A program made the translations under genes and the position numbers. This document shows, piece after piece, positions 5,766 through 49,968 of a stretch of DNA of 64,000 nucleotides (position 1 is its first letter; every line of letters begins with the position of its first letter). The notes under the pieces were generated by a model. The model did no database searches and had not been told where the DNA came from. It saw only the letters and a program-made list of their open reading frames with translations. Where the stretch lies: the NCBI GenBank assembly GCA_963930775.1, contig OZ005696.1, forward strand, positions 5,766,001-5,830,000, read 5' to 3'. The DNA comes from Cliona cf. orientalis. Taxonomy: Eukaryota > Porifera > Demospongiae > Clionaida > Clionaidae.

Positions 5766-6920
5766 TGGGGGTGGGCCGACATTCAAGGTATCAGTGTCAC
5801 ACTTAGACTCGAAAGAGCACCCATGTAATTTATCCACGGCATCTTCATATTTCGAATAGTATAGCCACGGCTACTATTGTTTTCAACCTTAAATTTAAGA
5901 TCGAGAGCAAGGGCGGGCAGCCGTTGACAGCAGTCGTATAAAGTGGGCCTGGTTATGACCATTAGCAGTGCATGATCGCTCTTTTGTGCTGAAATGATAC
6001 TAACAGTCTCCAGAATTAAGATATTATCTCTGTACAGATGTAGCATGTACAAGGTTATGTGCTCCAACACAGCTCTGGGGTATTTTATGCCGAATTCATA
6101 GATGTATAGCTAGTGCACTAAGTACTCACCGATCACGTTACAAATCCCTCAATGTACATGTATAATAATATAGTGCATACCTTCAACATAGGTATTCTTC
6201 ACCTCTTCAGCCTGTTGGTAGAGGGAATATTGCTGTAGAACCTCGTTAATTTTTTTCCATGATGGGCAAGGATGATGGTGGGCATATGTATCCAAATAAG
6301 CCTCTTTTCGTCTAGCCCAACTCTGGTAGCTCTTCCTAATCTCCTCTAATGCAGATTTAGGTAGACCAAGGAACTCTCCAATATCAATGTGAAAAGCACC
6401 ACCCGGATCCCCTACTGATTGAAATAGCTCAGTAAGTCTGTCAGTGGTAAGAGTGAGATCTGCAAAGTCAAGTACCATGTTTATTCTAATAGCTATAGAA
6501 TTTAAGCTAAAAAATTATTTTTGTGCAATAATCTGGCAAATGTCTTTACAATCTACATTAAGATACATTATGAAAGTCATAGAATGCAAATTCTCTTGCG
6601 CTAATAAAATATTGCGTTCTATTAGCATAAACACGGTAAACAGTGAATTATACTAATGAATACATACAGTCACAACATTGCATAAAGTATCTGCAAATTT
6701 TGTGGTCATCAAATTTGAGTTAAATACTGACATGTACATAGCAGATCCAGGAAGCTAAAGGAGCTTGGTCACCACCCTAGGCCCCAAAGGTAATAATAGA
6801 CACTAAGTATCTACCTAGATTAGGCTCCCCCTTAAGATAAGAAAGCTTCACTCGCTAGCCTCGTTCAGTTTTGCAGCAATGATGTGTTTCAATGAAAAGG
6901 ATAGGGTCATTAACCCTCAT
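5766..6920. repeat. Segmental duplication, copy 1 (exon plus introns)
   Basis: Both intron flanks and the exon at 6181-6459 match 62410-63995 almost base for base over long runs, for example TATAGCTAGTGCACTAAGTA, CCTTCAACATAGGTATTCTT and GGAGCTTGGTCACCACCCTA. The left part (5766-6000) is also a decayed copy of the MITE at 12916-13451. The other copy carries a 0.48 kb insertion that is absent here. Confidence 0.85.
6181..6459 (-). CDS. Death-like exon, LTTDRL type
   Basis: 279 nt, 93 codons, phase 1-1 (acceptor TGCAG, donor GTATGC). The product begins DLTLTTDRLTELFQSV and contains LGLPKSALEEIRKSY, AYLDTYAHHHPCPSW and YQQAEEVKNTY, which follows the death-fold layout (LGL...L..I, then SW, then an alanine-rich last helix). 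It is nearly identical to the exon at 63237-63515. Confidence 0.7.
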
Positions 6921-9900: not shown

Positions 9901-12900
9901 GACCTTGCTCGATCGAGCGCTCAGTGAAGTGTTAATATGGTGGCTACTTACCAACAGTAAGCTTACTGGCCTGTAAAATATGCTCCCGAAATAGAAGGCT
10001 TTTGTCGCTACTTGGTTCTAAACAGCCTTCTTTCAAGAGTGCCGGTCAGCCACCTTCAGGATCGAGATAACGAGGGGCGTGGCTTCATTCGTAGGTCAAT
10101 CTAGACGCTGGTTACCTGAGCTGTCTCGAGAACCCCACTGATGCATGATGCAAAAGAAGACGTCCTAACTAGCTATCAAAAGACTGCCTGGCATTTGCAC
10201 TTACAGGAGAATTCAAGTTTGAACACACGGTGTGTTTGGGGCCCAGTGTACTATAGCAAAGGCTAAGATCACACAAACATGCTGAATCAGTAGTGTACTT
10301 GCTTCCCTATAAGATTATTATTAAATATTGTATTATTGTTGGAGCACAGTTGGATGTAGCTAGGTCCAGAAAAAATTTTGAAGTTGTAGCTAGTTCCATG
10401 CATTAAATTTTAAATATTAAACAATGAATAGGCAAACTGGTCACCATGGTACATGCCTCTGTCCCCACGAGATTAGTCAGCTAGGTGACATTGATAAAAA
10501 TTAGTGACAATCATGAACTATCAGGCCCTGAGGGCACTAAAAAAAGAACAATAACAAGTATAAAAAACAATTGAATAAAATTGAAGGACGAAGTAGGGAT
10601 GGCAATGCCAAAAAATACACAAACAAGATTTGTAGGGATAACGTATCACATCCACTATACATCCCTACGCTTGCTTTTTGAGTAGCTGTGCACACACATA
10701 TTTATATATTTATATATGGGGCACATGCATGCAGGAATGGAAAATCAATACTGTATACCCATGGATCAATTAGCGATACTTTACATACTGAATCAGAAGT
10801 GTATGATATAAATTATCGAGAAAAGCAAGCGCAGGGATGTATAGTGGATGTGATACGTTATCCCTACAAATCTTGTTTGTGTATTTTTTGGCACTGCCAT
10901 CCCTACTTCGTCCTTCAATTTTATTCAATTGTTTTTTATACTTTATAAGTATACAGTTTAGTTCAGCTGCGGAGATCACTGAGAGGTGCAGTTACCACAA
11001 ACGATGGCATAAGAGCAGTGACAGTTGTAAGCTAAGTGGGTGCTAAATAAACTACTACTACTACGTACCATCCCCCAGCTACTGACCACCACTATTAGAG
11101 ATGCATGTGCACTGCAAACTATACTGGCAAGCGATGGTAAGGCAGCCTAATGTCTGAACAGGAGCAGTTCGGGCAGCCTTAGAGCCATGTTGGTTGGATT
11201 TTAGCCGATGACCAACCACACTGATATATTCATTAACATGCATTACATGACCGCAAAACACCTTTGCATTACAGAAATGGAATAACTTACGCCAATGCAG
11301 TAAAGGTCGCCATATTATCGTCTAACTGGGGCGAGCCTGAGCGAGCCCCACACTAAGCAGTACACCGAGAAAACCGCTGTACTTATGTATGTATGTTTGT
11401 ATGTAGCGATACGTCAAACACGTGCCCACTAGCTCACAATGCATGCGCAAATTATCACGGTAAAGATCAATATCGTCAACGTTTGCTGCGCTTAACTCTA
11501 AATATAGTTCACCAAAAGATGCTGCTTGCATCCATTCGAGTAGACTGCTAGAAAACAAGAAAAGGTAAGGCATCAGTACAAGTATCTACAGCAAATTGAA
11601 GGCTAGGCCTATAATCTGGGTGCAAGGACTACGTTATAATCTAATTTCAGTAGCTAGCTAGCTGTACAATTCTGTAGCCACATACACGTAGTATAGTCAA
11701 AGTAGCCTCAGTGGCAAAACTCCAGACTTACTTGGGATGAATCATGCATGGTACGCAATTGTTATTTGTACTCCTCATCCATATAGTGACAATAGACAGA
11801 ATCAGTTGAGCAATCGATAGCTGCTTGTACTGTATGTACTATGGATCGAAGATAGTAGAGGGGGCATCCCAATCCTCCCCCTCTACTATTAAAGTCTCTT
11901 TTATAGCGAAGGCTTGCCCCCTCGATGATTTACATCACCCTAGTGGGTAGTAATATTATTAGAATAAAACTTCACCAGTGAGAGCAGGTAACAAAATTTA
12001 TCTATACAGTAATATCCCTATCAGATTTGACACCAACAAGCATTACTGAAAATCAATTATAATAGACTTACCTCTAGGAGGCAGGAATGTCCTTGCCTGC
12101 TCTACAGCAGTCATCTCATCTTCTTTGTACAGCTGTGAGGTGAGGTGTTCCCAGGAAGACTCAGGATAATAATTGACATACATATCACTGCAGGCATGTG
12201 TCTGCTCTCTTTCACTGGAATGGCTACTATAAATCTCATCAAAGTACATGTACACTCTGGTCTGTTGTTCATAGCCATGATATATTATCTCGAGCACAAT
12301 CTCCCACAACTGTCTCCTGTCCTCTGTGACCTTCTCCATCACATCAGTCACATTCTCCACTGTTAATGAAGGGTCTACATGAAGATTAAAGATTAGATGT
12401 TCAAACCCAATAAAGCCTCCACCCACTCCTTCAACTTCAGCTGTTTGTTAGATTCATTAACACTCCCAATTCAGGCATTCTATAGATAAGTTGAAATCGA
12501 CATGGGTTTTTGTTGATTGCAAACTATAAATTTATATAATTAAGGCTAATTACCGTAAGCCTCGTAAGGCAGGTGTTGTAAATAGGCGATTGAGAAGTGA
12601 AGGGATCGAAGAGAAAAAATTTCAGGACCAAACTGGGATTTGAACCAAGGACCTTCTGAACTCTAGTCAGATACTCTTACCAACTGATGCTTGCATTTAC
12701 AAAACACAATCAGAAGTGTGTCTCTATGGCTACCATCATTTGTACTATATGGCACTACAATTCCGACCAACTGTGTGCCTTTTCAACTTGTGGCAGAGAG
12801 CATCTTTTGTGCCCTCAGGGAAGACACGACTACATAAGAAAAATGTCACTCTGAAAACATTTTCATTGAAAAAGTAGTACACTAAACAGCCGTTAAGCAA

Positions 12901-15900
12901 GCAGTCCAAAACATATACCGTACCCTCGCGAAAGAGGGCCCATGGGCAGTGCACCTTACATCTGGCCAAGATTGGGGGATGGGCCGATATTCGAGGTATC
13001 AGTATCGCATTTAGTCGCGAAAGAGCGCCCAGGTAAGTTACCCACGCTATCTTCATAATTTGAATAGTAGCAGCACCTACTATTGATTTCAGCCTTATTC
13101 AAGCACGCTTACCAATCCAGAGCAAGGGAGGCCACGATACTTCACCATGTGTCGTTGACTGCAGCCGTATTAAGTGGGCGTGGTTACGATCGCTAGCCGT
13201 GCACGATCATTCATTTGTGCTGAAACGTGGCGTAGAGCTAGTTAGGCTTAGTATTACGGCTGTTTAGCAGGTTACTTATCGATTTTACATAGATTATTCG
13301 AGGTTCAGTCCTCATAAACCGGCCATTTGAGCTACGATTTTTACACATGGGCGCATATTCGAGTAAACACTAGACCTTAGCAGGAAATTGAGCCCAAAGT
13401 GGGGGGTGGGCCGATATTCCGTAGTGGGCCCTCTTTCGCGAGGGTACGGTACAACCATGGATAATATAATAATATTATCCATGGTACAACCGTTGCAGAT
13501 CCAGGAAGTACATCCGGTGGCACATTCCAGAGCTGCAAATTTTTGCCGTTTTTATCTATTTTTTCATACCTGTCCTATCTAGGTCATCCTTCACTTCTAG
13601 GACTCCAAACAAAGACCAGAAGATAGAGTAACTCTTCTACTTTCTTCTCGTTCAAGTCCCATAACCCGGAGACATTCATGAGCTCCGCAGCGACCGCTCT
13701 TGTGTTGCTCTACAATATTATTATAAGACTAGAACAAAGTTTTTCTAGCGATTCCAGAGTTACACGGCATCAAAAATCGGAAAATTTCAGTACAACCGCG
13801 TGGTATTCTCCACGTCTTCTCGAAGTTTTGTCGAGTGTCTGATGATTTATCCAGTAAATGCCAAGGAGGGGAGTGCTCTCCAAGTTTCTAGGCAGCAGAC
13901 ATCATCATTCAAATGGTTAGTTTCTATAATTATTCAAACTTTCAAGAACAAATCTGGATGGAATTGTTTGGTATAGTCCAGCGTGTGTGAGGCTAGCCTC
14001 GAACCCAGGCTCACTTGGGATTCAAGGCTAGTGTGAGGCAAGTACCTAACTTTTGTATCAGGTAAATAATGAAGTCCAGGGATGAGCCTTACCAGCTGAA
14101 ATGGCTAAAGAGTTTTAATGTACCTGTGCCATAATCAGCCGACATCGAAGCTGAAAAGCACAAGTTCACATCCATGGAGGTTAAATATGCTAGCACTTGT
14201 CCCACCTGTCTCACTCTCTCTCCCTCTTTTTCTTTTACTCTCACGTACACAATCTCTTAGGTGATAATCAGCTATCGATGAGTATGAGATGGTGAGAGGG
14301 GGGAGTACTGGAGCTCGACCACCAAAGAGAAGGTGCTGCCTAGGCCTCCTCAGACTTAGCTTTTGTTTTGAAGCTATCTTCTGAGATGCTGAGAGAACTA
14401 GCTACTCGATCTAGGTCCTTGCACCTTCGCTGTGGCTACTTGAGCACTTTCTCTATCAACTGTAGTTGTCAATGTGTGATGATGGCATAGGAGACTGATT
14501 GTAAAAGCTTTAACAACCTTCTGCAAACCTTCAAGAAGGCCTTTGATGGCTGCACAATATCTTTGTACCACCTAGAAAGTTTTGTCATTGATTTATACGT
14601 ATTTTATTCAATGTTTCTATGGTGAATTAACAAAATTTTATACTATTTTTAACAGCGTGTAACTTTGGAACCGCTCAATGGAAAAACTTCGTTTCAGTCT
14701 TATATTGTAGAGCAACACAAGAGCTATAGAATGGTACTTGAATCATGGGAATCCATCCTAGGGAACCAAAACGTGCCACTTTTTACGTGAGGTACTTTTT
14801 GTGAGCGCTTGAGAGTAGCATGCACAAAAGCGGTCGCCGCGGAGCGCATGAATGTCTCCGGGTTATGGGACTTGAACGAGCAGAAAGTAGAAGAGTTCCT
14901 CTGTCTTTTGGTCTTTGTTTGGAGTCCTAGAAGTGAATGATGGCCTAGATAGAACAGGTAAGAAAAATAGATAAAAAACGGCAAAAATTGCATGCACTGG
15001 AACGTGCCACCGGATGCACTTCCTGGATCTGCAACAATTGGACCGCTTGCTTAACGGCTGTAAAGGACTACGGTATAGCGGGAAACTTTCGAGGGAGAAA
15101 ACTTTCACGAATTTCGCGATTTTTCCGCCATCTGCGAAAGTTTTCTCCACGAAATTTTACGCATGCCGCACCCATTATGCAACCAATTTTAACATTCCGC
15201 GAAAGTTTTCTCCGTGAAATGCTCCTTTCCTACCGACCCACGAAAGTTTTCTCCCTCGAAAATTTCCCGCTATATGGCATTTATGAGGGCTACAGTCCAA
15301 ATACTCAAGATATCATTGATAAAAACATTCATATCACTGTAGAACCGCACCAAGACTGTTTATGCCAATATTATGCTTCTGCCCCAAATGAATACTAATT
15401 CATCCATTTATGATTGTGGCCATATTCTATTTAAAGGATGCCAACAAATTGGAGGCAATTTTTGAAGTAGCATGATCACACAACGATTATAGTAACCCAC
15501 CATTTTGTTGAAGGAATGGCCTTGCTTCCTTTACTGCTTCCATTTCACTCTCAACATACAACATTAGGACAAGATGCTGCCATGAAGATTCAGGTTTGAT
15601 GTCGACATAGACATGAGCTAAGGCATATGTTTTCTCTTCAGCAGTTGAGTATTTTAGGTAGACTTCATCAAGATAAGAGGATGGAGTGACATAGTCCCAC
15701 CTCAACACCCGCTCCCACACCTCCCTTCTCCTTCCCTCGTCTGATGTCACTTTCCCCATTACTCCAACTAAATTCTCCACTGTCAGAGTGGGATCTGAAA
15801 ACACAGTTTGTCACAATACAACGTATACATAATACTTAGATCATAGCTGTAACAAATACTGCAATTTGATTGGTTACTGACAAGTATCTATATCTCATAG

Positions 15901-27900: not shown

Positions 27901-30900
27901 CGATGAGTAATTAATGACGAAAGTAATGATGAAATGATGACGAAATTCATGATGAAACCTATAACGTAATTGCTGTGAAGACTGTTTCAAAATGTTTAGC
28001 ACGCATGAAAGCTTGTTGGGGCCCACAATCTGAACCTAGCGTAAAAGATATCGTGGACTATCGATGAGATATGGCGATTCTCTCAGTTCGCTTTCTTTGG
28101 CGAGCTAGCACTCGGGGGGGGATTTCCCTATTCAGTCTGGCACATGGCAGGTAGAGGTCACGTCCGGGTCAACCGGCTCGAGCCGCGCGCCCCAATATAC
28201 GTGTATACAGAGCATGCGCAGTTTGTTGATGTGTTCTAGTTCGAATTATGGCGGTGTACAGGTAGCGAGGGACTCGGGATGTAGTCTAAATTGTTCATTA
28301 TATCCCCAGTAGCGATTTATTTTTCTGTGGTTATGAGGTAATTGTGGTGTAACCTATGGTGAAATTATGATGATATTATGATGCAACCTATGAGGTAATT
28401 ATGAAATCCAGGGACTCTCTGGAGCCTTCCTGGTACTTGAAAATCAGTAAAATTAATATGTAGGTAGAGTATCTTATGTGTGTATCCAGCGAATACATTA
28501 CGAGCTGAGCGCTACTTCCTCTGAGAAGTACCGTTGGTTGAACTTCACGTGCTTTCTTGGCATACGTAATGCCGTGGATAAATAAAGCTAGCCTTGCGTT
28601 ATATAATATTATAGCACGCATCATTGTCACAAGGGGCTGGCCCGCGCGAGACTGCAGCAGCACGACCAAACTGAAGTTCGGAAGGAATACTGTGCTGTCG
28701 GGTTTGTCTCTGTGACTGAAGCATTGAAACTTGTCGTTATCAAGGTTGAGAGTCGATGGAAATATAGATATATGTAAATACGTTCACAATTTAACACATA
28801 ACCCACCAATTTGTTGTTGAAGGAATGGCTTTGCTTCTTTTGCTGCTGCCATTTCACTCTCACCATACAAGATTTGGACAAGGTGCTGCCATGAAGAGTC
28901 AGGTCTGCTGTTGACATAGATATCAGCTAAGGCATACATCTTCTCTTTAGCCATTAAGTACTTTGGGTAGACTTCGTCAAGATAAGAGGATGGAGTAATG
29001 TATGTGTAGCCCGACTTCAATACCCTCTCCCACACCTTCCTTCTCCTTCCCTCATCTGATGTCACTTTCTCCATTACTCCAACTAAACTCTCCACTGTCA
29101 GAGTGGGATCTGAAAACATGTAGATTATTACATCATCACTACTATGGGGAAAGTACATATTTGTATTGAACACATGTATAAAAAATATAATAGTGTGTCA
29201 CACAGTATGACATAAAGTTACATGTACTCTTAATGACATGTAAATAAGATAGCATGCATAAAACTGAAGATACATGTACATGTATATGTATTTACCGTAC
29301 CCTCGCAAAAGAGGGCCCACTACGAATGTCGGTCCACCCCCCACTTTGGGCTTAATTTCCTGCTAAGGTCTAGTGTTTACTCGAATATGCGCCCATGTGT
29401 AGCTGCCCTTGAAAACGCAGCTCAAATGGCTGGTTTATGAGGAGTGAACTTAGAATAGTCTATGTAAGATTGATAAGTAACGTGCTAAACAGCCGTAAAA
29501 CTAAGTCTAGCTAGCTTTATGCCACGTTTCAGCACAAATAAATGGCTAGCGATCGTAGCCACGCCCACTTAATACGGCTGCAGTCAATGATACACAGTGA
29601 AGTATTGCGGCCGCCCTTGCTCTGGATTGGTAACTGTGCTTGAATAAGGCTGAAATCAATAATAGACGCTGCTACTATTCAAATTATGAAAATAGTGTGG
29701 GTGACTTACCTGGGCGCTCCTTCGTGTATAAACGCAATACTGATACCTCGAATATGGGCCCATCCCCCAATCTTGGCCCAATGTAAGATGCACCGCTCAT
29801 GGGCCCTCTTTTGCGAGGGTACGATATTAACCCATGGTGCATGCGCTGTAGGGTATAGTAATCGTTCTGTCTGTGTGTCTGTCTGTCTATTACTACGAAA
29901 TTAGCTGCCTATACCTCTTTTTACATTGAAAGGAAAGTGTCTTAGCGTTCTTTATGGTGTTTCTATCATGTGGCTTTGGCTAAAAATGCTTCAATAGTTC
30001 TAGAGTCATCAACTTTCCTGGTCACCGCCGCCTTCCTTGCTCCCTGGCAAGCTTTCGATGGATAAAGAGGCTTCTTTTCAATTTGAAGGGTATGTACATG
30101 TGCATGGTTAGCAATAGATCTAACAAGACAACTGGTTCATCACTGATCATAGCACACTGATAGATAAGCTTCTTGGCTTTCTGAGCATGCTACAAACTGC
30201 TGACATGACACTGCTGTATGAAAAACGTGATACTGATGCATAGTACACAATCACGTGCAATGCGGTTACCCTGACTCCAGGTTTTCAAGTAATACGCAAA
30301 AATGTGCTTGGATCCATGTGAGTAACTATATGGGACATGCAATACTGCTCACTACAATTGGGCTGAGGGTTTTGCACCATTAGTGCTTCATTGCATTTGC
30401 ACTGATGACCTCAAGCTACCCATTCGGCTATAACAATATTATTATACATGTACATTTACATGATAGTGTTTTAATAAGGGACCCTGGAATGACCTTACTG
30501 AAAATATATTCCCCCCTTCCCCCACCCAAAAATAATACCACCGAAGTGCCATCAATAACTGCAGGCTTCCAACATTGACTCTAACTTTGGGTCTACAAAG
30601 TATGCTGAAGAGGTCTACTTTGGGAGGGGAGGACATAAACATCCCCTGATCAGGGTACCATATAAAAGACCAATCCAAGCACCTTTCGAGTATTTAATTA
30701 TTAACCACAACCAATTAACTAATTAGGCGTGGCAACCGGGGGGGGGGGCGTAATCGCGGGATTCAATATGGGACATGCAATACTGCTCACTACAATTGGG
30801 TCGAGTATTTTGCACTATAGTACTTCATTGCATTTGCACTGATGAGCTCAAGCTACCGCTTCCGATGAATGAGGTATAATAAGTCTTCCAACATTGGCTC

Positions 30901-33900
30901 TAATCTTTGGGTCTAAAGTGTGTTGAAGAGGTCTACTTTGGGAGGGGAGAACATAAACATCCCCTGACTCAAGAGACATTAGTGCTTTAGCATAACACTG
31001 ACATGTGATTCCCCCCTCCCCCAACTAATAAATAATCCTGCACGAAACACACAAGTCGATTTCCTTACAAACTGCAATGCCATGCTATTAATTCTTGAAG
31101 GATGACCATATTCAATGCAATAATATGGAACATAGATACATTATGTTCAAAATTTAACACGTAACCCACCAATTTGTTGTTGAAGGAATGGCTTTGCTTC
31201 CTTTGCTGCTGCCATTTCACTCTCATCATACAAGATTTGGACAAGATGCTGCCATGAAGATTCAGGTCTGATGTTGACATAGATATCAGCTAAGGCATAA
31301 GTCTTCTCTTCAGCCGTTGAGTATTTTAGGTACACTTCGTCAAGATAAGAGGATGGTAAAGTAACGTACATGTAGCTGTAGCCCGACTTCAACACCCCTT
31401 CCCACACCTCCCTTCTTCTTCCCTCGTCTGATGTCACTTTCTCCATTACTCCAACTAACCTCTCCACTGTCAGAGTGGGATCTGAAAACATGTGATTATT
31501 ATATTATCGCTATTAGGGGGAAAGCATTTGTATTGAACACATTTATAAAAATTAATTACATATATAAGATAGTGTGTCACACAATATGACATAAAATTAC
31601 TCTTAATGACATGTAAATAAAATGGCATGCATAAACTTGAATATACATGTATTTATTAACTCTTGGTGCATGCGCTGTAGGGTATAGTAATCGTTCTGTC
31701 TGTGTGTCTGTCAGTCTATTACCACAAAATCTGCTGCCTATACCTCTTTTTACATTGAAAGGAAAGTGTTATAGGGTTTTTTTTATCATGTTTCAAGGTT
31801 TTTATAGTGGCTTTGCTTCATTCAATAGTTTTAGAGTCATCAACTTTCCTGGTCACTGCCGCCTTTCTTGCTCCCTGGCAAGCTTTCGATGGATAAAGAG
31901 GCTTCTTTTCAACTTGAAGGGTATGTACATTGTACATGTGCATAGTTAGCAATAGATCTAACAAGACAACTGGTTCATTACTGATCGTAGCACACTGGAA
32001 GATAAGCTTCTTGGCTTTCTGAGCATGCTACAAACTGCTGACATGACACTGCTGTATGAAAAACGTGATACTGATGCATAGTACACAATCACGTGCAATG
32101 CGGTTACCCTGACTCCAAGTTTTCAAGTAATACGCAAAAATGTGCTTGGATCCATGTGAGTAACTATAATATGGGACATGCAATACTGCTCACTACAATT
32201 GGGCTGAGGGTTTTGCACTATTAGTGCTTCATTGCATTTGCACTGATGACCTCAAGCTATCCTTTCGGCTATAACAATATTATTATACATGTACATTTAC
32301 ATGATAGTGTTTTAATAAGGGACCCTGAAATGACCTTACTGAAAATATATTCCCCCTTCCCCCACCCAAAAATAATACCACCGGAAGTGCCATCAATAAC
32401 TGCAGGCTTCCAACATTGACTCTAACTTTGGGTCTACAAAGTATGCTGAAGAGGTCTACTTTGGGAGGGGAGGACATAAACATCCCCTGATCAGGATACC
32501 ATATGAAAGACCAATCCAAGCACCTTTCCAGTATTTAATTATTAACCACAACCAATTAACTAATTAGGCGTGGCAGCGCCATTCAGCCACGCCCTCCAAA
32601 ACGCTAAATCGAGCTATCCGGAATTTAAGCAGCCACTTTTACCGAACCTTAGCTATACAAACGGAGGCCTACTATGATGATCTAACATACCAGCGGACGG
32701 ATTGTCGAAAAACCCTTCTGCTACGATTTTAGTCGCAAAAAAATAGAGTTTGGGGGGATCCACGGCACGATGTTTCACATGTAGCTCCGAACTGAAAGCA
32801 GCCATCGACAATCCGTCCGATAGATCGTCAACATCGATCATAAGCTTTGGTTTTCGATCATTAGTGCTGCGAAAACATGAGCGCAACAATTCCGGACGGC
32901 ATTTGCTCAATGAAGTGAGCTCAAAACTGCTGCTGTGCGGCTTTTTGCCGTGGCTTGTTCAAGGATGGTATGATAGTGACGTCACAGTACAGCTAGCCAC
33001 TAATTGGCTCGCAGACGGGCGCGCACCAACGATAATCAGACATGCCTTAACTGCACTGAGTGATTCCCCCCAAACAGATAATCTGGTATGAAACTACGTA
33101 AGTCGATTTCCTTTAAAACTGCATTGTCATGCTATTAATTCTTAGAGGACAACCATGTTCAATGCAATAATATGGAAACATACATGTACATGTAGATACC
33201 GTATGGCCGGAAATTTTTAAGGGAGTCAATTTTAGCAGTTTTCACAGGGGGCATGGCCATCGTGGTGAATGCCGCAGCTGGATCAATCTAACAGCTGGTT
33301 TACTTCACACTACTTCATTGTTGTTGAGCTGCTTCTACACAAATACCTCTAGCTCGATCATATGCGACTCTCGTACCATTTCTCGATCTCCACTAAGTTC
33401 AAATACATGTACGATCGATTGATCGCTTGCTGGTTTTTCACAACTTTTTCTCCTAATGAAATTTGAGCTGCAATGTGAATGCAGCAAGAAGCAAAACCTA
33501 ACGGATATTGTGGGTGGAGCAACTCCGGAACGTCCATCCACGAAAAATAGATAGCGAAATCTTTAAAGATGGGCCTCCATGAAAATTGGGTCCCTCACAA
33601 ATTTCCGGCCATACGATATATGTAAACATGTTCACAGTAATACATAACCCACCAACTTGTTGTTGAAGGAATGGCTTTGCTTCCTTTGCTGCTGCCAGTT
33701 CACTCTCATCATACAAGATTCGGACAAGATGCTGCCATGAAGATCCTGGTCTGATGTTGACATAGACATCAGCTAAGGCATGAGTCTTCTCTTCAGCCAT
33801 TGAGTATTTTAGGTAGACTTCATCAAGATAAGAGGGTAGAGTAGCGTCCATGTAGTCCAACTTCAACACCCTCTCCCACACCTTCCTTCTCCTTCCCTTG

Positions 33901-36900
33901 TCTGATGTCACTTTCTCCATTACTCCAACTAAACTCTCCACTGTCAGAGTGGGATCTGAAAACATGTAGATTATTATATCATCTACTAGGGGGAAAGCAT
34001 CCGTATTGAACACATGTATAAATTTATCACACAATATGACATAAAGTTACTCTTAATGACATGTATAGATAACATGGCATGCAGAAAACTGAGCATACAA
34101 TATCAGGTACATGTATTTATTAATCCTCAGTCCTGTCTTTACATTGTATAACGAAATCTGCTGCCTATACCTCTTATACGTCGAAAGGAAGGTGTCATTG
34201 GGTTTTATGGTGTTTTCAAGGTTTTTATCTTGTGATTTTTGCTTCATTCCAGAAATCTGTTGTAATCAAGTTCGCTGGTAAATGTCACCTTCCTTGCTCC
34301 CTGGAAAGCTATCAACGGACAAAGATGCTCTTTTTTTAACTCAAAGAGTATGTACATGTACATGTGTATGGTTAGCTATAGATCACTGGTTCATCACTGA
34401 TCGTAGCACACTGGCAGATAAGTTTCTTGGCCTTCTGAGCATGCTACAAGCTGCTGACACGACACTGCTGTATCACAAATGTGATACTGCTGCATAGTAC
34501 GCAATCACATGCAATGTGGTTATATACCATGACTCCATTTTTTAAAATAATATGCATACAAAATTGATGCGCTTGGATCCATGTGAGCAACTTGTAGTAA
34601 TAATATGGGACATGCAATACTACTCGCTACACTTGGGCCGAAGATTTTGCACTATAGTGCTTCATTGCATTTGCACTGAATCGTGTGATGACCTCGAGCT
34701 ACCCCTTCCGAGGAATGAGGCTATAATATACATGTACATGTACATTTACATGTACATGATAGTGCTTTAATTAAAAGAAGGGGCCCTGGAATATCCTTAC
34801 TGAAAACAATTCCCCCCTTGCCCCACCCAAAAATAACGCCAACGGAAGTGACATCAATAACTGCAGGCTTCCAACATTGACTCTAATCTTTGGTGTGTTG
34901 AAGAGGTCTACTTTGGAAGGGGAGGACATAGACATCCCCTGACTCAAGAGACATTAGTGCTTTAGCATAACACTGACATGTGATTCCCCCCTCCCCCCAA
35001 TAATAAAATTAATACAATATAATCCTAAATAAGGCCAGACCAATTTAATTTGTTGTTGCTCGGATACTGTGAGGTACAAATTGGACCGAGCGATCGAAAA
35101 AAAAAAGAAAAAAAAGCAATCAATTGGGGTGTGGTTGTAGACCACAATCTAATTAAGACAGACTAATATGACTATCTAAGACCAGGGAATCAAGATAGAA
35201 TACAAAAACCACTCAACTGTACATAAGCTCCACCCAACTTAATTAATTTTTTTTTCTTTTGTTTGCCAAAAAATTGGAGCGAGCGAATCCGTGCAACAAC
35301 TTATTTAATTGGTCTGGCCTAAGTTGATATCCTTACAAACTGCAATGTCATGCTATTAATTATTAAAGGACAACCATATAGCAACGCAATATTATGGAAA
35401 CACAGATACATGTAAATATGTTCACAGTTTAACACATAACCCACCAATTGGTTGTTGAAAGAATGGCTTTGCTTCCTTTGCTGCTGCCAGTTCACTCTCG
35501 TCATACAAGGTTGGGACAAGATGCTGCCATGAAGACTCAGGTCTGCTGTTGACATAGATATCAGCTAAGGCATGTGTCTTCTCTTCAGCTGTTGAGTATT
35601 TTAGGTAGACTTCGTCAAGATAAGAGGATGGAGTAACGTCCGAGTAGTCCAACTTGAACACCCTCTCCCACACCTTCCTTCTCCTTCCCTCATCTGATGT
35701 TACTTTCTCCATTACTCCAACTAAACTCTCCACTGTCAGAGTGGGATCTGAAAACGTGATTATTATATTATCGCTACTAGGGGGAAAGCATTTGTATTGA
35801 ACACATGTACATGTATAAAACTAGTGTCATGCAGGGCCTGTTTGGGGCGAGCCTGAGCTGAGCCTCTGAAAATCTCTGTCAGTAGCTGCAACTTGAAAAC
35901 TTTAAATTATAAAGTCATAGCCGCACAAATAGCTATCTTGAAGACCACTAATACAGATCCAAGCAGGCCATGCAGGCTCAATGACAGACAGTCTCATAGT
36001 GCTTGTGCCAACAGAATAATTTTTAGCTGCCTCTGTTGTCAGAGTCGGTGAGCAGCACGTCTATCTTTATCACGTTCTTAGGTGGTGCTTGCGCTGTTGA
36101 GCTGACGATGAGCTCTGTCTCGCTCTCTCCTCCTTGGAGCCTTAGCTACTTCTGTACGGCGCCATACGGTAGCTTGCTCGATCATACAAGTAGAAGCAGC
36201 AGATTGAGTGTTAGTAGAACTCATACTAAAACAGTAGCAAAGAACAACTATAGTCGTAATAAAGTGGCCAAAAAAGTGGCGAAATTCACTGAAATAATTC
36301 AATGTGTCAAAAAAACACGTGACTATGCTGACACAAATGTTTTCATGCGGCCTTTTGAAATATACCGCGCAGCGCTGTACAATGTCTATGGCGGTTCGCG
36401 CGTGACGGACGTACCATACATATAAAATAATAATAAACATAATAATAATATATGGATTGCGAGCGTTTGTCTCGTCTATGTGGGGCTCGCTCAGGCTCGC
36501 CCCAATTATATGTATAATACTAGAGCTCTGTAGAGCACATACCCCGCGTGCTCTGTAGCCACTGTAGGGTAGTACTGCAACACTCTGATCTGCGGCATAG
36601 CTGTTTTATGACCTGACGACCCTTTCCAACACTGAGCTTGAGCATGCGCAGTCGCATCAGTATGCTAAACGAGTGGGTGTGGTCGATAAACCACAGGCAT
36701 GTTGAACAGAAAATGAACGATTTGTAGCACTAGTAAGCCTTATTGAGCAATTTGAAGCCCGTACAAACCAGTTTTTCACTGATATCTACCGATTGGTTGT
36801 GCTTACAGCACGCACAGATGCCTAGAACTCAAGATTTGGTGATTTTCGTGCCGACGACGACAACGACGACAGACGGACAAACCGATTGCTTTATCCCTTG

Positions 36901-39900
36901 CGCATGCGCACGGGGTAATTATAGTGTGTCACACAGTATGACATAAAATTACTCTTAATGACTTGTAAATAAGATGGCATGCATAAAACTGAACATACAT
37001 GTATTTATTAACCCTCAGTGCATGCGTCGTAAGATATAGTAATCGTTCTGTCTGTGTGTCTATCCGTCCATTATAAAATGGGGTGGGATCCCCTGATAAT
37101 AGTGCTTTAGCACAACACTGACATGTGATTCCCCCCCCCCCCCCCCCCCCAGCTACACATCTATAGTAAGTGTAAGACTTCATGTGATAACCCTGTACTG
37201 CTCAAATAGAAGCTGGCTTGGAATAAAAGCCACTCCTATTAACTTTAGAAGCTGGGGGAGGAGTGCACAGGAACAAGAGTCAATACAATATGCCAGGTCT
37301 TAAATAAATGTCAGAGTGGGCATGGTTTTACACTCATTATAAAGGGGTGTGGCCAGCCATCCACGAGGTAGAGCTGAGTGAGTGCCCATGTATTTCAGCT
37401 GCCTGTAGGTTTTTTTTTTCTTTCAATACAAGTATGCTTGATGTCACAATCATGGAATAATGTGTCTAATGTGCATGAGTTACTCACAGTATCAAAGCTT
37501 ACATACTCAGAGAAATCTAAACAGTATCATCTCCCTAACTGTCAATCATTTAGCACAGTGTGCATGCCAGCTGCAACTTTGAACTTATTAGTATTACTTT
37601 GTAGACCACACCCCTCGATGCAGGTCAATAGCAGCTGCTCGAATTCGCCACTGCAATGGCGACGTTCTCATTCTGTTGAATCTACCACCAGGCTATGATA
37701 AAAAACAGATCTCGTCTCTCGCTTCGCTTGAGGCTCGGTGGCCTGTTGAGCAGGCCTCTCAAAACGTGTGGCACTTCGCACCATTCGTTCGAGGATGCAT
37801 CTCTATGGCCACCTGTGCACTCTTATTTGTGCACATGGCACTGCAATTCTGATCAATTGTGGGCATTTTGAACTTGTAGAAGAGCGCATCTTTTATGCCC
37901 TCCAGGTTAGGATACGGACTATATCAAGAAAAATGATCATCTGATAAATATTTTATAAATTTCTGAGCTACGGGGATGGCTGGAGTATATATACCTCAAA
38001 TGTCGGCCCACCATCCACCCTCCTCCCCTCGTTTCATCCTGGCAAATGTAAAATGCACTGCCCATGGTCTTTTTTTACGAGGTTCATGGTACATTTATGC
38101 GACATATAGTATAGCCTATTAGGGCATAAAATGCTTGTGGATCACATACATGTATCAGCATACCTTGCAGTGGTTCAGCATAGCTCCTGATTTGTTGTGC
38201 CTTGTCAACCTCATTTGCACAATAAAGAGCCCAAATCACCATCCTCCATGATAGAGTGTGCCATGACTCCTCCACCACTGCTCTCAGCCGGGCCTCATCA
38301 GATTCATACTCGTCATGAATTTTGTTCAGATTGATTTGTGGATATAAACCGGAATAAGGGTACAAAATTTCATTAAGCACTTTGCTCAGCCTCCTCCAGT
38401 TAACTCCAGCCACTGCTTTGAGCACCTCTTCCACTGAGAGAGGCAGGGCTACAAAGACAGTAAGAAATCAACAGCAACAAGCGATGGACACTACTACTAG
38501 CTATGCCAATTCATATATGGGTGATTCAGAATCCATTAGCCTTCACATCTTTTATACAGTAGAAGTAATTAATCTTTTTGGGACAGGGTCTGGGGACGAG
38601 CACAACCAAGAAAATGCTCACCAGTCCCCAGACCCTTTCCCCTTCTTTTGGGGCGAGATCTGGGGACGAGACTAGCTGTACTGACGCCCGTGCAGTGGCG
38701 GATCCAGGATTTCCAGAAGGAGGGTTGTGATATACTGCTGCACGAAGCTTGCTCGAATTTTTAGAAGCCACGCCCACTTTCGTTCGTTTTTAAGACAAAC
38801 TACCATCTACCAGTCCAATCGATCTGTTTCCAACTAATATCTTCTAAAGCATTCTAAGGTGAGCCATAGCAGCAGTTTTCTTAGTTCTGTAGCCAGAAAT
38901 GGGGGTTCCATTTACCCAACATCAGTATACTTCTTAGTGCTAGGTGTAGCCAAAAGGGGGGTTCCTGTGCACCCCTGGATCCGCCACTGCCGTGACTGGG
39001 CATTGTGATCCCACTCACCACTGTATGCTATAAAAATTAAACAGTAAACTATAAATTTATCACAAAATCAACGGCAATTTCTGGCATCAGTCAAGCCATC
39101 AAGCTACTATATCTTTAGTGAAAACAGATCTAGAATATTCCAGCAAGAATCAAGTAATCAAGGCCCCAAAATGGACCCAATCAAATTTTGATCCCGGTCG
39201 CGGGTGTCAGTACAGTAGGTATAGTAGTGACCACTCCTTACTAGAGACATGCAACACCATACCCATCCCCCTCTCCCCGCAAAATAACACGAGGAGTCCA
39301 CAACAAAAGGAATCTCGTACACCTTGCTTAGAAATCTGCAAATATCCACAGAAACCAATCAAGAAATCATTAGAAATCATCCAGTGGAATCGCTCGCGGT
39401 TACAGTGTCATAGTGTCATATGATCCCCCCTAAAGTTGTCCCCCCCCCCCCTGACACTGCAGTGAATGGTTTCACAAAGACTGACAGTGTATCACGAGTT
39501 ATAAAATGATGAATGTTTGGCTATTTTGTGCTGTCAGTTAGAAATTTTCATGCAATTTTATTGCCGTTCAGGACCCTGTACACAATACTTTTCTTATTTT
39601 TAGTCAAATAACGTTAACATTGTAAATCATGCACTTAGTATTATCAGGTGTATCCAATGAATCATAGTATATATATAAGCTTACTAAACTTTAGAAATCT
39701 GTAGTTAAAAATTCAAATAGCAAGAAATTGTCGAAATCAAACAGAAATTGAATACCAGGAAGAAATCTTGTCTGAAATCGGAAATCAACCATATGCATCA
39801 CTAGAAATCAAGCTGAAATCAGGATATTTGTGTTTGAAATCTCGTACGCTAAAATGAATCGTTGCAGATCCCTCGAAACAACATGAACCCTGATAACGAT

Positions 39901-40260
39901 TGACAGCCACATCCCCATGCAGAAAACCCTTTTCAGAGTGCACTATAATTTGAATGGCTTCGTATAAATAGGATGGGGCAGGAATGAGGATGAGGATGGA
40001 CAGAGGGTTATGCCATACCTGCACATAACTTATGTGCAGGTACATGTATGTAAATTATAAGTCAATAAGGTCTGTTCAACGAAGATAGTGTACACTAGAC
40101 ACTAGCCTCGTCCGTGGGGACGAGGCTAAGCCATGTAAGCACACCCACCAAATACTTCTCTCTCATAATTTGATAGAACTAGCGTGAACTGTATATGATC
40201 ATAGCTCTAAATATGGTATGACTGACCTTTGCTGATAGCTTGATCATCTGCCATTATCAT
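6181..40260 (-). CDS. Candidate giant gene built of repeated death-like exons (gene model)
   Basis: Exons in transcript order: 40260-40227 (ATG; MIMADDQAISK), 39027-39019 (9 nt), 38448-38164, 35747-35445, 33955-33653, 31481-31170, 29109-28807, 24084-23791, 15794-15501, 12374-12072 and 6459-6181. All are on the minus strand, have AG acceptors and GT donors, and every internal exon begins after one codon base and ends after one (phase 1-1), so any subset joins in frame. Each large exon encodes 93-104 residues with a helical pattern ending in SW..L...LY....A..., like helices 5-6 of the death fold. No stop exon is found; the 3' end may lie left of the window. Whether all exons belong to one transcript or several genes is not provable here. 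By analogy to the 53.7-63.5 kb gene, a signalling or immune adaptor role is inferred. Confidence 0.5.
6909..7376. mobile_element. Non-autonomous element, AACCCTC-hairpin family
   Basis: It begins with the palindromic TTAACCCTCATCGCATGTGTGAGGG, followed by a GTCTGTCTGTCT run, and ends GAGAGCTCTAG. A longer relative is at 24999-25902, and 5'-end fragments occur at 24243, 29829, 31660, 34120 and 37008. It abuts the next element. The class is uncertain (see findings). Confidence 0.55.
7380..7961. mobile_element. Non-autonomous element, TACCCC-hairpin family, copy 1
   Basis: The left end TACCCCGTGTGCATGCGCAA forms a hairpin with GGGGTAAA. The right end is GGGGTATGTGCTCTACAGAG followed by CTCTAG. 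Other copies are at 21654-22286 and, inverted, 36519-36918. It is AT-rich inside and has no coding potential. Confidence 0.7.
7962..10552. other. Intronic/intergenic sequence with repeats, no gene
   Basis: 8105-8310 is a copy of the repeat at 4795-5060. A (TA)n tract sits at about 8428-8448. 9305-9411 is a fragment of the family at 59625-59964 (TACTATTCGAATAAATACAG). Short ORFs here have no recognisable domain or codon bias. Confidence 0.5.
10553..10950. repeat. Fold-back element with about 120-bp inverted arms
   Basis: The arm 10557-10678 (AATTGAATAAAATTGAAGGA ... CATCCCTACGCTTGC) is repeated in reverse complement at 10826-10946 with few mismatches, separated by about 150 bp. This would fold into a long hairpin and is MITE-like. 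Apparent ORFs across it are shadows of the repeat. Confidence 0.8.
10951..12071. other. Non-coding stretch
   Basis: 10960-11190 is an inverted copy of the repeat at 4795-5060. About 11325-11352 resembles the GGGGCGAGCC terminus of the MITE at 35841-36506. Nothing else is recognised. Confidence 0.45.
12072..12374 (-). CDS. Death-like exon, DPTLTVE family, divergent member
   Basis: 303 nt, 101 codons, phase 1-1 (acceptor CATGTAG, donor GTAAGTC). It starts DPSLTVENVTDVMEKVTEDR and ends SSWEHLTSQLYKEDE ... FLPPRG. It is the most diverged of the seven family members and the one with the best consensus donor, and lies outside the tandem array. Confidence 0.65.
12633..12691 (-). repeat. tRNA-derived SINE remnant
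   Basis: On the minus strand GCATCAGTTGGTAAGAG resembles a tRNA A box/D arm and GGTTCAAATCCCAG a B box/T arm, with an anticodon-like stem TCTGA/TCAGA between. There is no proper acceptor stem. It is followed by TTTTTTCTCTTC, as is the copy at 60747-60816, which points to a SINE and not a functional tRNA. Confidence 0.55.
12916..13451. mobile_element. MITE, TACCGTACCCTCGCGAAAGA termini
   Basis: The left end TACCGTACCCTCGCGAAAGA and the right end TCTTTCGCGAGGGTACGGTA are perfect inverted repeats ending in TA. A second full copy in the opposite direction is at 29293-29826; decayed copies are at 5766-6000 and 62410-63060. Its left flank, 12700-12900, is a partial copy of the repeat at 37428-37960. 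Confidence 0.85.
13454..13485. repeat. Perfect 32-bp palindrome
   Basis: ACCATGGATAATAT, a short AATA spacer, then ATATTATCCATGGT. It lies between the right end of the preceding MITE and the left arm of the next element. Confidence 0.9.
13488..15043. mobile_element. Long inverted-repeat (fold-back) element
   Basis: The left arm 13488-13735 (CGTTGCAGATCCAGGAAGTA ... GTGTTGCTCTACAATAT) matches the reverse complement of 14700-15043 (ATATTGTAGAGCAACACAAG ... CTTCCTGGATCTGCAA). The right arm carries an extra block at about 14715-14800. The middle 1 kb has no transposase-like ORF, so it is non-autonomous. Confidence 0.75.
15069..15279. mobile_element. Short MITE related to the TACCGTA set
   Basis: The ends TACGGTATAGCGGGAAACTT and AAATTTCCCGCTATATGGCA are imperfect inverted repeats. 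Inside, GAAAGTTTTCTCC recurs several times in both directions. Confidence 0.65.
15501..15794 (-). CDS. Death-like exon, DPTLTVE family
   Basis: 294 nt, 98 codons, phase 1-1 (donor GTGGGT). It begins DPTLTVENLVGVMGKVTSDE and has YLDEVYLKYSTAEEKTYALA and SSWQHLVLMLYVESE. It is shorter than the 101-codon members in the loop after WERVL and at the C-terminus. Confidence 0.7.
16007..16143. repeat. Hairpin-forming inverted repeat in a dispersed repeat
   Basis: The arms AGACACTGTTTAGTCGGTTT and AAACCTCCTAAACAGTGTCT enclose a loop. It is part of a repeat spanning about 15830-16300 that is related to 42870-43165 (shared TAGAGACCT/CACCCTTGCT-like segments). Confidence 0.65.
16726..16966 (+). repeat. 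Ngaro split repeat A1
   Basis: It begins ATATATTTTCTGTCGTTTGA and ends CAGAGTAGTTTTT. It matches A2 over its full 241 bp apart from the MITE inserted in A2. Confidence 0.88.
17046..17770 (+). pseudogene. Ngaro gag-like ORF with in-frame stop
   Basis: From the ATG at 17046 the frame runs 28 codons to a TAA at 17129-17131, then continues to 17773. The product is charged and helical, rich in Glu/Lys, and ends with a zinc-knuckle-like CFMCGKHGHL whose last cysteine is missing. A donor GTAAGT at 17770 and an acceptor at 17938 could splice it in frame to the RT ORF (putative 169-bp intron). The role would be nucleocapsid-like binding of element RNA (family knowledge). Confidence 0.65.
17939..19819 (+). 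pseudogene. Ngaro reverse transcriptase and RNase H, broken
   Basis: The frame is open through 18845. The RT part shows GKLRLVIDLRYVNQ, FSFDLGSGYHHVDIH, LPFGLSTACYVFTK and the catalytic box YRDDG (the YxDD type of DIRS-group RTs). A frame change near 18800-18815 is needed to reach the next ORF (18920-19243), which carries the RNase H motif CSDASGTGCGGYV. That frame stops at 19241. The following ORF (19469-19819) has the DIRS-group post-RNase-H block ALVVPLWKSAAFWPLL. It is a decayed polyprotein. Confidence 0.82.
19864..20347 (+). repeat. Minisatellite, about 40-bp unit, within the retrotransposon
   Basis: About 11 variable copies of a unit containing GTGGACTTGTGGGTCC followed by TGTGTGTTCCTATG. 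The five copies at 20100-20300 are most regular. It sits between the RNase H and recombinase ORFs. All three frames are open through it, but this reflects the repeat composition and not a gene. Confidence 0.85.
20354..21445 (+). CDS. Tyrosine recombinase of the Ngaro-like element
   Basis: 363 codons, intact. The N-terminal part (from about residue 55, VSTVKKYSGAYNRWRRWAST) is the core-binding, SAM-like domain. The catalytic residues of the family are visible: Arg in FRFDELAKL (about residue 196), H311 and R314 in GLHSLRSGG, H334/W337 in HGRWR and nucleophile Y346 in DGYVKDS. The enzyme would integrate a circular DNA intermediate. The start is chosen at the first ATG after the minisatellite; the first 40 or so residues may be non-native. 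Confidence 0.88.
   Translation: MGCCICPRTHELLIHVFLIIRKSYSRSDVFSAGVWSDLSSIEDPELQQLAQSLPSLVLQGKAVSTVKKYSGAYNRWRRWASTKPEIKSTLPPLPLHICLYLSFLAQTAKTSAPIVEAVNALSWVNQIATVEDTTSHPLVIQVLAGIKRKLACPTVKKEPITPEILSMLVSKFGQQDASLSDIRTLCASLLGFAVFFRFDELAKLYESDIIVRKEHIEIFIESSKTDQLRDGAWVVIARTDSPLCPVAMLEHYMRMVNVTGACEKYLFRAIVNTKNGQRLRESGGVSYTRMRELVLEKLSAIGLDPKRLGLHSLRSGGASAAANAGVPDRMFKRHGRWRSENAKDGYVKDSLKDRLSVSQHLGL
21449..21557 (+). repeat. Ngaro split repeat B1
   Basis: It matches B2 (22849-22956): both contain GAACATGTTGGTGAGTGGTT and end GGGATTAGATGAGAG. It directly abuts A2. Confidence 0.88.
21558..22433 (+). repeat. Ngaro split repeat A2 (interrupted)
   Basis: 21558-21653 and 22287-22433 together equal A1. 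The break falls at GAGATAATT/GTTTGTTGTCAC, where the MITE is inserted. The stretch 22434-22848 between A2 and B2 is unique and non-coding. Confidence 0.88.
21654..22286 (+). mobile_element. TACCCC-hairpin element inserted in Ngaro A2
   Basis: It starts ACCCCACGCGCATGCGCAAG, ends GTGCTCTACAGAGCTCTAG, and is homologous to 7380-7961. Comparison with A1 gives the exact empty site: ...ATAATT/GTTTG... . A TT is present at both junctions, so a 2-bp duplication or insertion without duplication fits. Confidence 0.85.
22849..22956 (+). repeat. Ngaro split repeat B2 (element right end)
   Basis: A copy of B1 with scattered substitutions, ending TGGGATTAGATGAGAG at 22956. Non-homologous sequence follows. 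Confidence 0.85.
23055..23690. mobile_element. MITE, CTCAGGT-GTCTAAGGACTGGG termini
   Basis: The left CTCAGGTTGTCTAAGGACTG and right CAGTCCTTAGACTACCTGAG ends are inverted repeats. The interior is non-coding. Confidence 0.75.
23791..24084 (-). CDS. Death-like exon, DPTLTVE family
   Basis: 294 nt, 98 codons, phase 1-1. It starts DPTLTVESLVGVMEKVTSDK. Compared with other members it lacks about four residues after YFDEVYS (no LKYS). SSWQHLVQTLYDESE and AKPFLQEQ are conserved. The donor is GTGGGT. Confidence 0.7.
24999..25902. mobile_element. Non-autonomous element, AACCCTC-hairpin family, long copy
   Basis: The start AACCCTCGGCGCATGCGCGA pairs with GGGTTA, followed by a GTCTGTCTGTCTG run; the end is GAGAGAGCTCTAG. 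A second start-like motif at 25297 suggests nesting. A near-perfect hairpin, 25356-25435 (GATGACAGTGGCGTCTTTTC paired with GAAAAGAAGCCACTATCATC), lies inside. Confidence 0.55.
25903..26989. other. Non-coding stretch, possible degraded ORF
   Basis: 26535-26795 is open for 86 codons without a recognisable domain. 26940-26975 is a G-rich low-complexity run. A short tandem motif TGTGCCTAACATAAA occurs at about 26222 and 26382. I cannot assign a gene. Confidence 0.35.
26990..27421. mobile_element. MITE, TACCGTA termini
   Basis: The left TACCGTAAACTGTGGTTATT and right GCTTATTAATCAGAGTATAC-GGTA ends are imperfect inverted repeats. GCGCATGCGCTTAATA motifs recur inside, as in the copies at 5114 and 43168. 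Confidence 0.7.
27422..28806. other. Non-coding stretch with element fragment
   Basis: A poly-C run lies at about 27837-27852. 28296-28640 is related to the left half of the MITE at 50611-51900 (CCCCAGTAGC-ATTTATTTT, then AATAAAGCTAGCCTTG and ATAGCACGCATCAT). No gene is seen. Confidence 0.5.
28807..29109 (-). CDS. Death-like exon, DPTLTVE family, array unit 1
   Basis: 303 nt, 101 codons, phase 1-1. It has DPTLTVESLVGVMEKVTSDE, then WERVLKSGYTYITPSSYLDE and SSWQHLVQILYGESE. It differs from its neighbours at a few residues (PKYLMAKEKMYALA). Confidence 0.72.
29293..29826. mobile_element. MITE, TACCGTACCCTCGC family, second copy
   Basis: The ends TACCGTACCCTCGCAAAAGA and TCTTTTGCGAGGGTACGATA are inverted repeats. 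The interior matches 12916-13451 in reverse orientation (TTTGGGCTTAATTTCCTGCT and others). Confidence 0.85.
31170..31481 (-). CDS. Death-like exon, DPTLTVE family, array unit 2
   Basis: 312 nt, 104 codons, phase 1-1, the longest member: three extra residues in the loop SGYSYMYVTLPSSYLDE. Otherwise DPTLTVERLVGVMEKVTSDE and SSWQHLVQILYDESE. The length variation is in whole codons, so the frame is preserved. Confidence 0.72.
33197..33618. mobile_element. MITE, TACCGTATGGCCGGAAATTT termini
   Basis: The left TACCGTATGGCCGGAAATTT and right AAATTTCCGGCCATACGATA ends are inverted repeats. It is inserted in the intron between array units 2 and 3. Confidence 0.82.
33653..33955 (-). CDS. Death-like exon, DPTLTVE family, array unit 3
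   Basis: 303 nt, 101 codons, phase 1-1. It has VTSDKGRRRKVWERVLKLDY, YLDEVYLKYSMAEEKTHALA and SSWQHLVRILYDESE. Confidence 0.72.
35445..35747 (-). CDS. Death-like exon, DPTLTVE family, array unit 4
   Basis: 303 nt, 101 codons, phase 1-1. It reads WERVFKLDYSDVTPSSYLDE and SSWQHLVPTLYDESELAAAK. First of the seven family members in transcript order. Confidence 0.72.
35841..36506. mobile_element. MITE, TTGGGGCGAGCCTGAGC termini
   Basis: The left end TTGGGGCGAGCCTGAGCTGA and the right end CTCGCTCAGGCTCGCCCCAA are inverted repeats. A 129-codon ORF inside (36036-36425) is overlapped by one on the other strand and has no domain; I treat both as chance. Confidence 0.78.
36519..36918 (-). mobile_element. 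TACCCC-hairpin element, inverted copy
   Basis: It begins CTAGAGCTCTGTAGAGCACA and ends TTGCGCATGCGCACGGGGTA, the reverse complement of the ends at 7380-7961. With the MITE before it, it splits array unit 4. Confidence 0.75.
37428..37960. repeat. Dispersed repeat, about 0.53 kb (copy 1)
   Basis: It matches 59085-59590 and 60500-61190: GCTTGATGTCACAATCATGG, GACCACACCCCTC, CGAATCTACCACCA-like blocks, and GGCCTGTTGAGCAGGCCTCT. A partial copy occurs at 12700-12870. Class unknown; no ORF is conserved among the copies. Confidence 0.7.
38164..38448 (-). CDS. Divergent death-like exon
   Basis: 285 nt, 95 codons, phase 1-1 (acceptor TTTGTAG, donor GTATGC). It starts ALPLSVEEVLKAVAGVNWRR and continues LNKIHDEYESDEARLRAVVE, LSWRMVIWALYCANEVDKAQ. 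The opening (x-L-x-L-S/T-V-E) parallels the DPTLTVE exons, and NW/SW positions fit a death fold. It is the first large exon after the start exon. Confidence 0.62.
38570..38680. repeat. Short inverted repeat around TCTGGGGACGAG
   Basis: GGGTCTGGGGACGAG at about 38587 is inverted as CAGTCCCCAGACCC at about 38622, and repeated directly as ATCTGGGGACGAGAC at about 38658. A related pair GCCTCGTC/GACGAGGC occurs near 40105. Confidence 0.5.
38693..38989. mobile_element. MITE, CAGTGGCGGATCCAG termini
   Basis: The left end CAGTGGCGGATCCAGGAT and the right end CTGGATCCGCCACTG are inverted repeats. CAGTGGCGGATCC is a terminus I recall from many animal hAT-like and related non-autonomous elements; only a 5-bp flank match (CCGTG) is visible. 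Confidence 0.78.
39019..39027 (-). CDS. Candidate 9-nt microexon
   Basis: On the minus strand CATACAGTG lies between a TTTTTATAG acceptor and a GTGAGT donor. It would add three codons (AYSG across the joins) in phase 1-1, matching the start exon and the 38.4 kb exon. Confidence 0.4.
39028..40226. other. First-intron sequence without recognisable features
   Basis: A poly-C run lies at about 39441-39451, and the sequence is AT-rich with many GAAATC motifs at 39690-39840. ORFs on either strand are short and unconvincing. Confidence 0.4.
40227..40260 (-). CDS. Start exon of the death-exon gene
   Basis: ATG at 40260 (a second ATG six bases on has context ATAATGG), encoding MIMADDQAISK, then donor GTCAGT in phase 1. 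Short start exons in phase 1 fit the exons downstream. No signal peptide, so the product is presumed cytoplasmic. Confidence 0.5.

Positions 40261-45194: not shown

Positions 45195-49968
<4,774 letters not shown>

Follow-up and report, generated by a model that had tools for sequence, protein, structure and literature searches.

The stretch of DNA analysed here, a 64,000-nucleotide window of chromosome 8 of Cliona cf. orientalis (C8:5766001-5830000), carries on its minus strand the front part of a long gene of repeated exons, which we will refer to as gene A, together with part of gene B, an upstream paralogue on the same strand. An earlier sequence-only reading had placed the end of gene A at position 6181. 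Judged from its sequence, gene A spans C8 5806260 down to 5756794, running about 15 kb further, beyond the window, to the stop codon (C8:5756794) of an intact Death exon, and the exon array described in that reading appears to be only the front half of a ROCO GTPase gene with a C-terminal Death domain. The features are collected in Table 1, where, as below, positions lacking a C8 prefix are those of the window; the assembly searched comprises 216,785,154 bases in 149 contigs.

Each of the nine large exons of gene A has AG/GT borders and a single open frame of 279-312 nt, always a multiple of 3, and begins and ends in phase 1, as had been claimed from the letters of the window; the length steps of 98, 101 and 104 codons are likewise whole codons (294, 303 and 312 nt). 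The microexon to which the same symmetry had been ascribed is real and does end in phase 1, and it is the start exon, with the ATG. It is conserved in gene B, with a copy upstream at C8:5860107 (31 of 36 compared bases identical) in which the second ATG is the in-frame one. As the six array exons of gene A form one duplicated family with 86-92% DNA identity, the nine exons are not independent witnesses to phase 1. Twenty distant module copies on 9 contigs (36-58% identity to the module at 33.7 kb) all have an AG at the exact phase-1 acceptor and a phase-1 GT 1-3 codons beyond the end of the match; were the copies independent, an AG at a single set position in all 20 would have a probability near 1e-24, but they are paralogues and thus not independent. 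Genes A and B together have 15 array exons, every one of them open, and the probability that 15 of 15 would stay stop-free by neutral drift from a single copy is 8e-4, 1e-5 and 2e-7 at 0.03, 0.05 and 0.07 substitutions per site respectively, in a simulation of substitutions only, without indels.

Table 1. Exons of genes A and B in and beside the window
Feature	Position	Strand	Basis or remark
Gene A start exon, ATG to AAG/GT	40227..40260	-	34 nt, ends in phase 1
Gene A E2, first death-like exon, phase 1-1	38164..38448	-	borders; 80% identity to gene B E2
Gene A array module 1, phase 1-1	35445..35747	-	borders and open frame
Gene A array module 2, phase 1-1	33653..33955	-	structure predicted
Gene A array module 3, phase 1-1	31170..31481	-	borders and open frame
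Gene A array module 4, phase 1-1	28807..29109	-	borders and open frame
Gene A array module 5, phase 1-1	23791..24084	-	borders and open frame
Gene A array module 6, phase 1-1	15501..15794	-	borders and open frame
Gene A E9, diverged module, phase 1-1	12072..12374	-	92% DNA identity to gene B E9
Gene A E10, death-like exon preceding the Roc-COR exon, phase 1-1	6181..6459	-	borders and genomic copies
Gene A Roc-COR (ROCO) exon	C8:5759234-5761324	-	outside the window, about 11 kb past 6181
Gene B E10	63237..63515	-	sequence match to gene A E10
Gene B Roc-COR (ROCO) GTPase exon, phase 1-1	56931..59006	-	94% identity to gene A Roc-COR exon
Gene B terminal Death exon, phase-1 start, TAA end	53688..53998	-	Pfam Death, E 1.6e-7

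A search of the flanks gives gene A the order, at least, of start exon, E2, six near-identical modules, E9, E10, Roc-COR exon and Death exon, and gene B has start exon, E2, nine modules, E9, E10, Roc-COR exon and a Death exon with stop. The recurrence of this order in a paralogue, together with the conserved start exon, bears out the earlier view of one modular gene with symmetric exons. Because the gene B Roc-COR exon starts at AG/TG and ends at G/GT, and the Death exon starts at AG/AT, these joints are in phase 1 too; the gene A Roc-COR exon ends at a GT, with A as the split base. The terminal Death exon of gene B passes the Pfam Death cut-off (31.8 bits vs 22.6). At C8:5757107-5755190, outside the window, gene A has two terminal Death exons in tandem, of which the first is intact and has only 54% identity to its gene B counterpart, while the second, about 17 kb beyond 6181, is broken by frame changes or stops and over its second two thirds has 95% identity to the gene B Death exon. 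Turnover of the Death domain at the C-terminus may have left this pair.

The AlphaFold2 model of the array module at 33653-33955 has six helices, with a predicted local distance difference test score (pLDDT) of 87, and its best matches among solved structures are death domains, for example those of FADD, RIPK1 and TNFR1. Comparison of profiles also shows kinship to Death. The array module is thus predicted to be a death fold, a six-helix bundle, in agreement with the earlier suggestion of helical modules of about 95 residues. The hidden Markov model search against Pfam Death that had been proposed as a check did not recognise the array modules, returning sub-threshold noise only and no Death match; in alignment A4, 2 of 25 members match Pfam Death, with a best E value of 0.0056. 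As the array modules lie below the Pfam Death cut-off, we claim fold and profile kinship and not Pfam membership. Sequence searches of the PDB with two module alignments gave one irrelevant match in one case and none in the other, and that with the Roc-COR alignment gave only two kinesin-8 and two FtsE sequences (E 0.018-0.63), so that a fold search was needed for this exon. The predicted fold of the gene B Roc-COR exon resembles LRRK2 Roc-COR, with the COR domain directly C-terminal to Roc within the one long exon. Key residues of GxxGxGK[TS], DxxGQ and THKD, which we take to be the Roc GTPase motifs G1, G3 and G4, are present in 50 of 50 aligned sequences. Given this fold, we regard the Pfam Microtub_bd and Kinesin matches of the exon as P-loop noise. 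The Roc-COR alignment (A6) holds 49 of 120 listed homologues, and a Death alignment (A3) holds 25 sequences, namely the gene B terminal Death exon and 24 of 28 genomic Death stretches (L033, L034 and L040 were left out, as was L001, which does not read through in the frame used).

Modules differ in length chiefly in the loop that joins helix 2 to helix 3 (the H2-H3 loop). In an alignment of 74 sequences (A2, with 70 of 120 listed module homologues and 4 window modules) this loop ranges over 2-33 residues, with a standard deviation (SD) of 5.8 where every other segment has at most 1.2, and an entropy of 2.35 bits vs 1.0-1.7 elsewhere. A 22-sequence alignment gives 3-24 residues, an SD of 4.7 (helix 2 is next, at 1.9) and 2.16 bits vs 0.7-2.0 elsewhere. 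Variable columns are concentrated there in gene A (13 of 13 in the loop vs 33 of 90 elsewhere, p 1e-5), in gene B (11 of 13 vs 36 of 90, p 0.003) and in a third array, gene C (3 of 4 vs 19 of 86, p 0.04). The ratio of nonsynonymous to synonymous differences (pN/pS) is 0.85-1.09 in the loop and 0.69-0.82 over the module as a whole; because pS is raised in the loop as well, we did not adopt positive selection as an explanation. Variation is concentrated in the H2-H3 loop, and we do not claim positive selection for it. A module subfamily with a long H2-H3 loop is represented by L065 (C8:8594216-8594506), with a Roc-COR exon (C8:8590271-8592352) following 1.9 kb downstream of it.

The Roc-COR exon has at least 64 copies in the genome (64 scored of 554 candidates), and every one of the 64 is preceded on its own strand by an E10 no more than 20 kb upstream (median 1.9 kb), although for two of them the nearest same-strand E10 is a downstream one. 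At least 126 copies of E10 are found at E<=1e-10 (126 of 150 listed, from 479 candidates), 86 of them on chromosome 8. These sequence matches indicate that Cliona cf. orientalis has a large family of LRRK2-like ROCO GTPase genes marked by E10. The module set is the union of two scans (150 scored of 296 and 150 scored of 708 candidates), with the split match at C11:2995563 / 2995444 counted once and C8:2723157 counted despite its internal stops. A same-strand E10 lies downstream within 60 kb for 171 of the 172 scored modules, and within 10 kb for 152, vs 6% of random chromosome-8 positions. For 169 of 172 the nearest E10 of any kind is the same-strand downstream one, so among the scored matches nothing points to modules outside genes of this kind. 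E2-type exons behave similarly: of 90 genomic matches at E<=0.001, 80 are followed within 60 kb by an E10 on the same strand and 10 are not. Scored modules per E10, which are lower bounds, number none in 24 of the 126, one in 76, two in 5, three in 11, four in 7, seven in 2 (gene A has seven) and ten in 1 (gene B). In public assemblies the modules have 144 matching proteins and the Roc-COR exon has 630 (the best 120 of each were examined), and contigs of equal length, such as 1,243,260 and 864,704 bases, appear in both lists, so modules and Roc-COR core travel together there; some of these contigs may belong to Cliona cf. orientalis itself. Pfam Death matches occur genome-wide at no fewer than 150 places (150 scored of 1292 candidates), with clusters for example on C6, C10, C18 and C3.

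Some insight into how the arrays grow comes from neighbouring modules of gene B. Ba2 and Ba3 have 97% identity over 1,211 bp, and Ba7 and Ba8 98% over 1,334 bp; these stretches take in intron as well, on one side as much as about 0.9 kb, and show that exons were copied together with flanking intron, recently so in gene B. In module trees the Ba2/Ba3 pair has support of 96-97%, and Ba6-8 has 92-94% in the smaller tree and 45-56% in the larger. The seven modules of gene C (C8:7.64 Mb) are each 270 nt long and lie 542-580 bp apart; identity is 95% within this set and 66% with the modules of genes A and B. As the seven form one clade (support 100), this seven-module array expanded independently of A and B. 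Most deep nodes of the module tree are poorly supported, and leave undecided whether array growth preceded or followed the duplication that gave A and B. Of the exon shuffling suggested earlier, duplication within genes and of genes is seen, but the word shuffling goes beyond this evidence.

Several other elements share the window. The intron of gene A between the modules at 23.8 kb and 15.5 kb holds a retroelement on the plus strand (16820-21445), presumably DIRS-like, with a reverse transcriptase at 17931-18842 (Pfam RVT_1, E 6e-15) and an open reading frame (ORF) at 20348-21445 for which a Pfam search found no match. A plus-strand DNA-transposon ORF with a TNP-like RNase H domain (386-2059; Pfam PF21787, E 1.3e-15) sits between E10 and the Roc-COR exon of gene A, and minus-strand ORFs are present at 2562-3643. 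Head to head with gene A lies a plus-strand DEAD-box helicase gene (40443-42000; Pfam DEAD, E 7.5e-14) that we assume to be DDX19-like; about 180 bases separate the first ATG of this gene from the gene A start exon. A plus-strand WD40 gene with weak Pfam WD40 matches (45500-48400), presumably Groucho/TLE-like, holds a long CT-type simple repeat at 46.8-47.1 kb.

We think it rather probable that gene A encodes a multivalent, GTP-controlled ROCO scaffold, in which exons joined at phase-1 introns supply death-fold domains, a Roc-COR core and a C-terminal Death domain. For this reading the exon order, phases, paralogues, exon duplication and variable loop come from sequence, and the folds of module and core from prediction; the analogy behind it is with ROCO switches and death-fold assemblies. 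In such a model the protein would be a cytoplasmic switch whose off state is a Roc-COR dimer, with putative GTP binding and dimerisation, that keeps the death-fold domains apart. A trigger altering the nucleotide state would free these domains to nucleate a death-fold assembly, and the terminal Death domain would recruit a partner or be recruited by one. Module copy number (1 to 10) might set the avidity of assembly, since every module has a 1-1 exon to itself and can be gained or lost by unequal exchange with the reading frame intact. The variable H2-H3 loop might prevent cross-nucleation among paralogous assemblies or alter the ligand. By default all modules would be included constitutively, with skipping of single modules possible. 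Death domains normally occur one or two per protein, and a gene that strings seven to ten death-fold modules together on a single GTPase would have multivalent nucleation built in, with copy number as a possible dial for assembly. The setting is probably immunity, allorecognition or cell-death control. The available text of PMC12639293 describes Cliona cf. orientalis as a bioeroding demosponge with dinoflagellate endosymbionts, and symbiont policing by such genes is therefore a testable question.

Combinatorial or mutually exclusive splicing, in which cells include different subsets of the array and so build a receptor repertoire, seems to us unlikely. Every module exon is interchangeable in frame, and splice variants do occur in brown algal ROCO genes whose repeat exons are in phase, according to the available text of PMC11378527. 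In genes A and B, each of the 15 array exons has the donor TG/GTGGGT, vs GTAAGT in both E9 exons, which looks suboptimal and might favour skipping. However, donors outside the array are imperfect too (E2 GTATGC, E10 GTATAC, start exon GTCAGT), and in the array of gene C six of seven modules have GTAAGT and one GTAAGC, so that the donor argument is weak. Moreover, the 76 of 126 E10-marked genes with one scored module make the array look like a duplicated constitutive exon.

These single-module genes would also fit a second alternative, drift of copy number by unequal crossing-over with little function, where one module suffices and arrays are transient. The weak overall constraint on the modules and the near-identical recent copies in gene B point the same way, but the 15 open, in-frame array exons are improbable under neutrality and seven-module arrays arose at least twice, and we hold drift to be less likely still than a spliced repertoire. 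More doubtful again is the broader proposal of a splice- or somatically variable repertoire on a GTPase core, giving cell- or individual-specific codes for symbionts, pathogens or non-self tissue; if true, it would be an independently arisen animal counterpart of the brown algal LRR-ROCO system. That the exons are separate small genes or a pseudogene array is very improbable, for although gene structure was read from DNA, one terminal Death copy of gene A is broken and a retroelement lies within one intron, against it stand the phase-1 borders and open frames shared by all 20 distant modules, and the identical exon order and conserved start exon of two paralogues.

Among known ROCO proteins, DAPK1 and MASL1/MFHAS1 are linked to cell death or inflammation, and DAPK1 combines a C-terminal death domain with ankyrin repeats and a kinase. 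To our knowledge, and unlike gene A, neither has an N-terminal death-fold array. In domain content the closest set is that of placozoan ROCO proteins with CARD or death domains, which also join Roc-COR to death folds in an early-branching animal. It comprises at least 17 genes, and the available text of PMC4104024 does not mention a tandem death-exon array, whereas the sponge has at least 126 E10 copies and up to ten scored modules. The sponge family links ROCO proteins, best known from LRRK2, to an expansion of death signalling in an early-branching animal. Sponge Death-TRADD-N and NLR expansions are likewise large families with death-like domains (available text of PMC8195603 and PMC12909245), and the Amphimedon proteins among them have 1-3 N-terminal death-like copies; the core there is TRADD-N or NACHT, with arrays of up to ten not described in those texts, and here it is Roc-COR.

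In working plan, the brown algal LRR-ROCO family comes closest. There too a ROCO GTPase of an expanded family carries N-terminal repeats on single symmetric exons, with in-frame gain and loss of repeat exons, and a splicing repertoire with an immune role has been proposed; the same available text of PMC11378527 names MASL1 and cites arthropod Dscam as a receptor repertoire made by alternative splicing. The algal repeat is a 23-residue leucine-rich repeat (LRR) on 72-bp phase-2 exons for which, by that text, transcripts exist, whereas the sponge module is a predicted death fold on 93-104-codon phase-1 exons known here from genes alone, and we infer that the two arrays arose independently. Judged by titles and the openings of abstracts, we found no literature on this gene family or on death-fold exon arrays on ROCO genes. 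ROCO proteins with death folds and symmetric repeat exons are each known; what is new within the literature searched is the array of death-fold exons on a ROCO gene. The comparison suggests that in two distant lineages ROCO genes have independently placed their N-terminal repeats on symmetric, duplicable exons.
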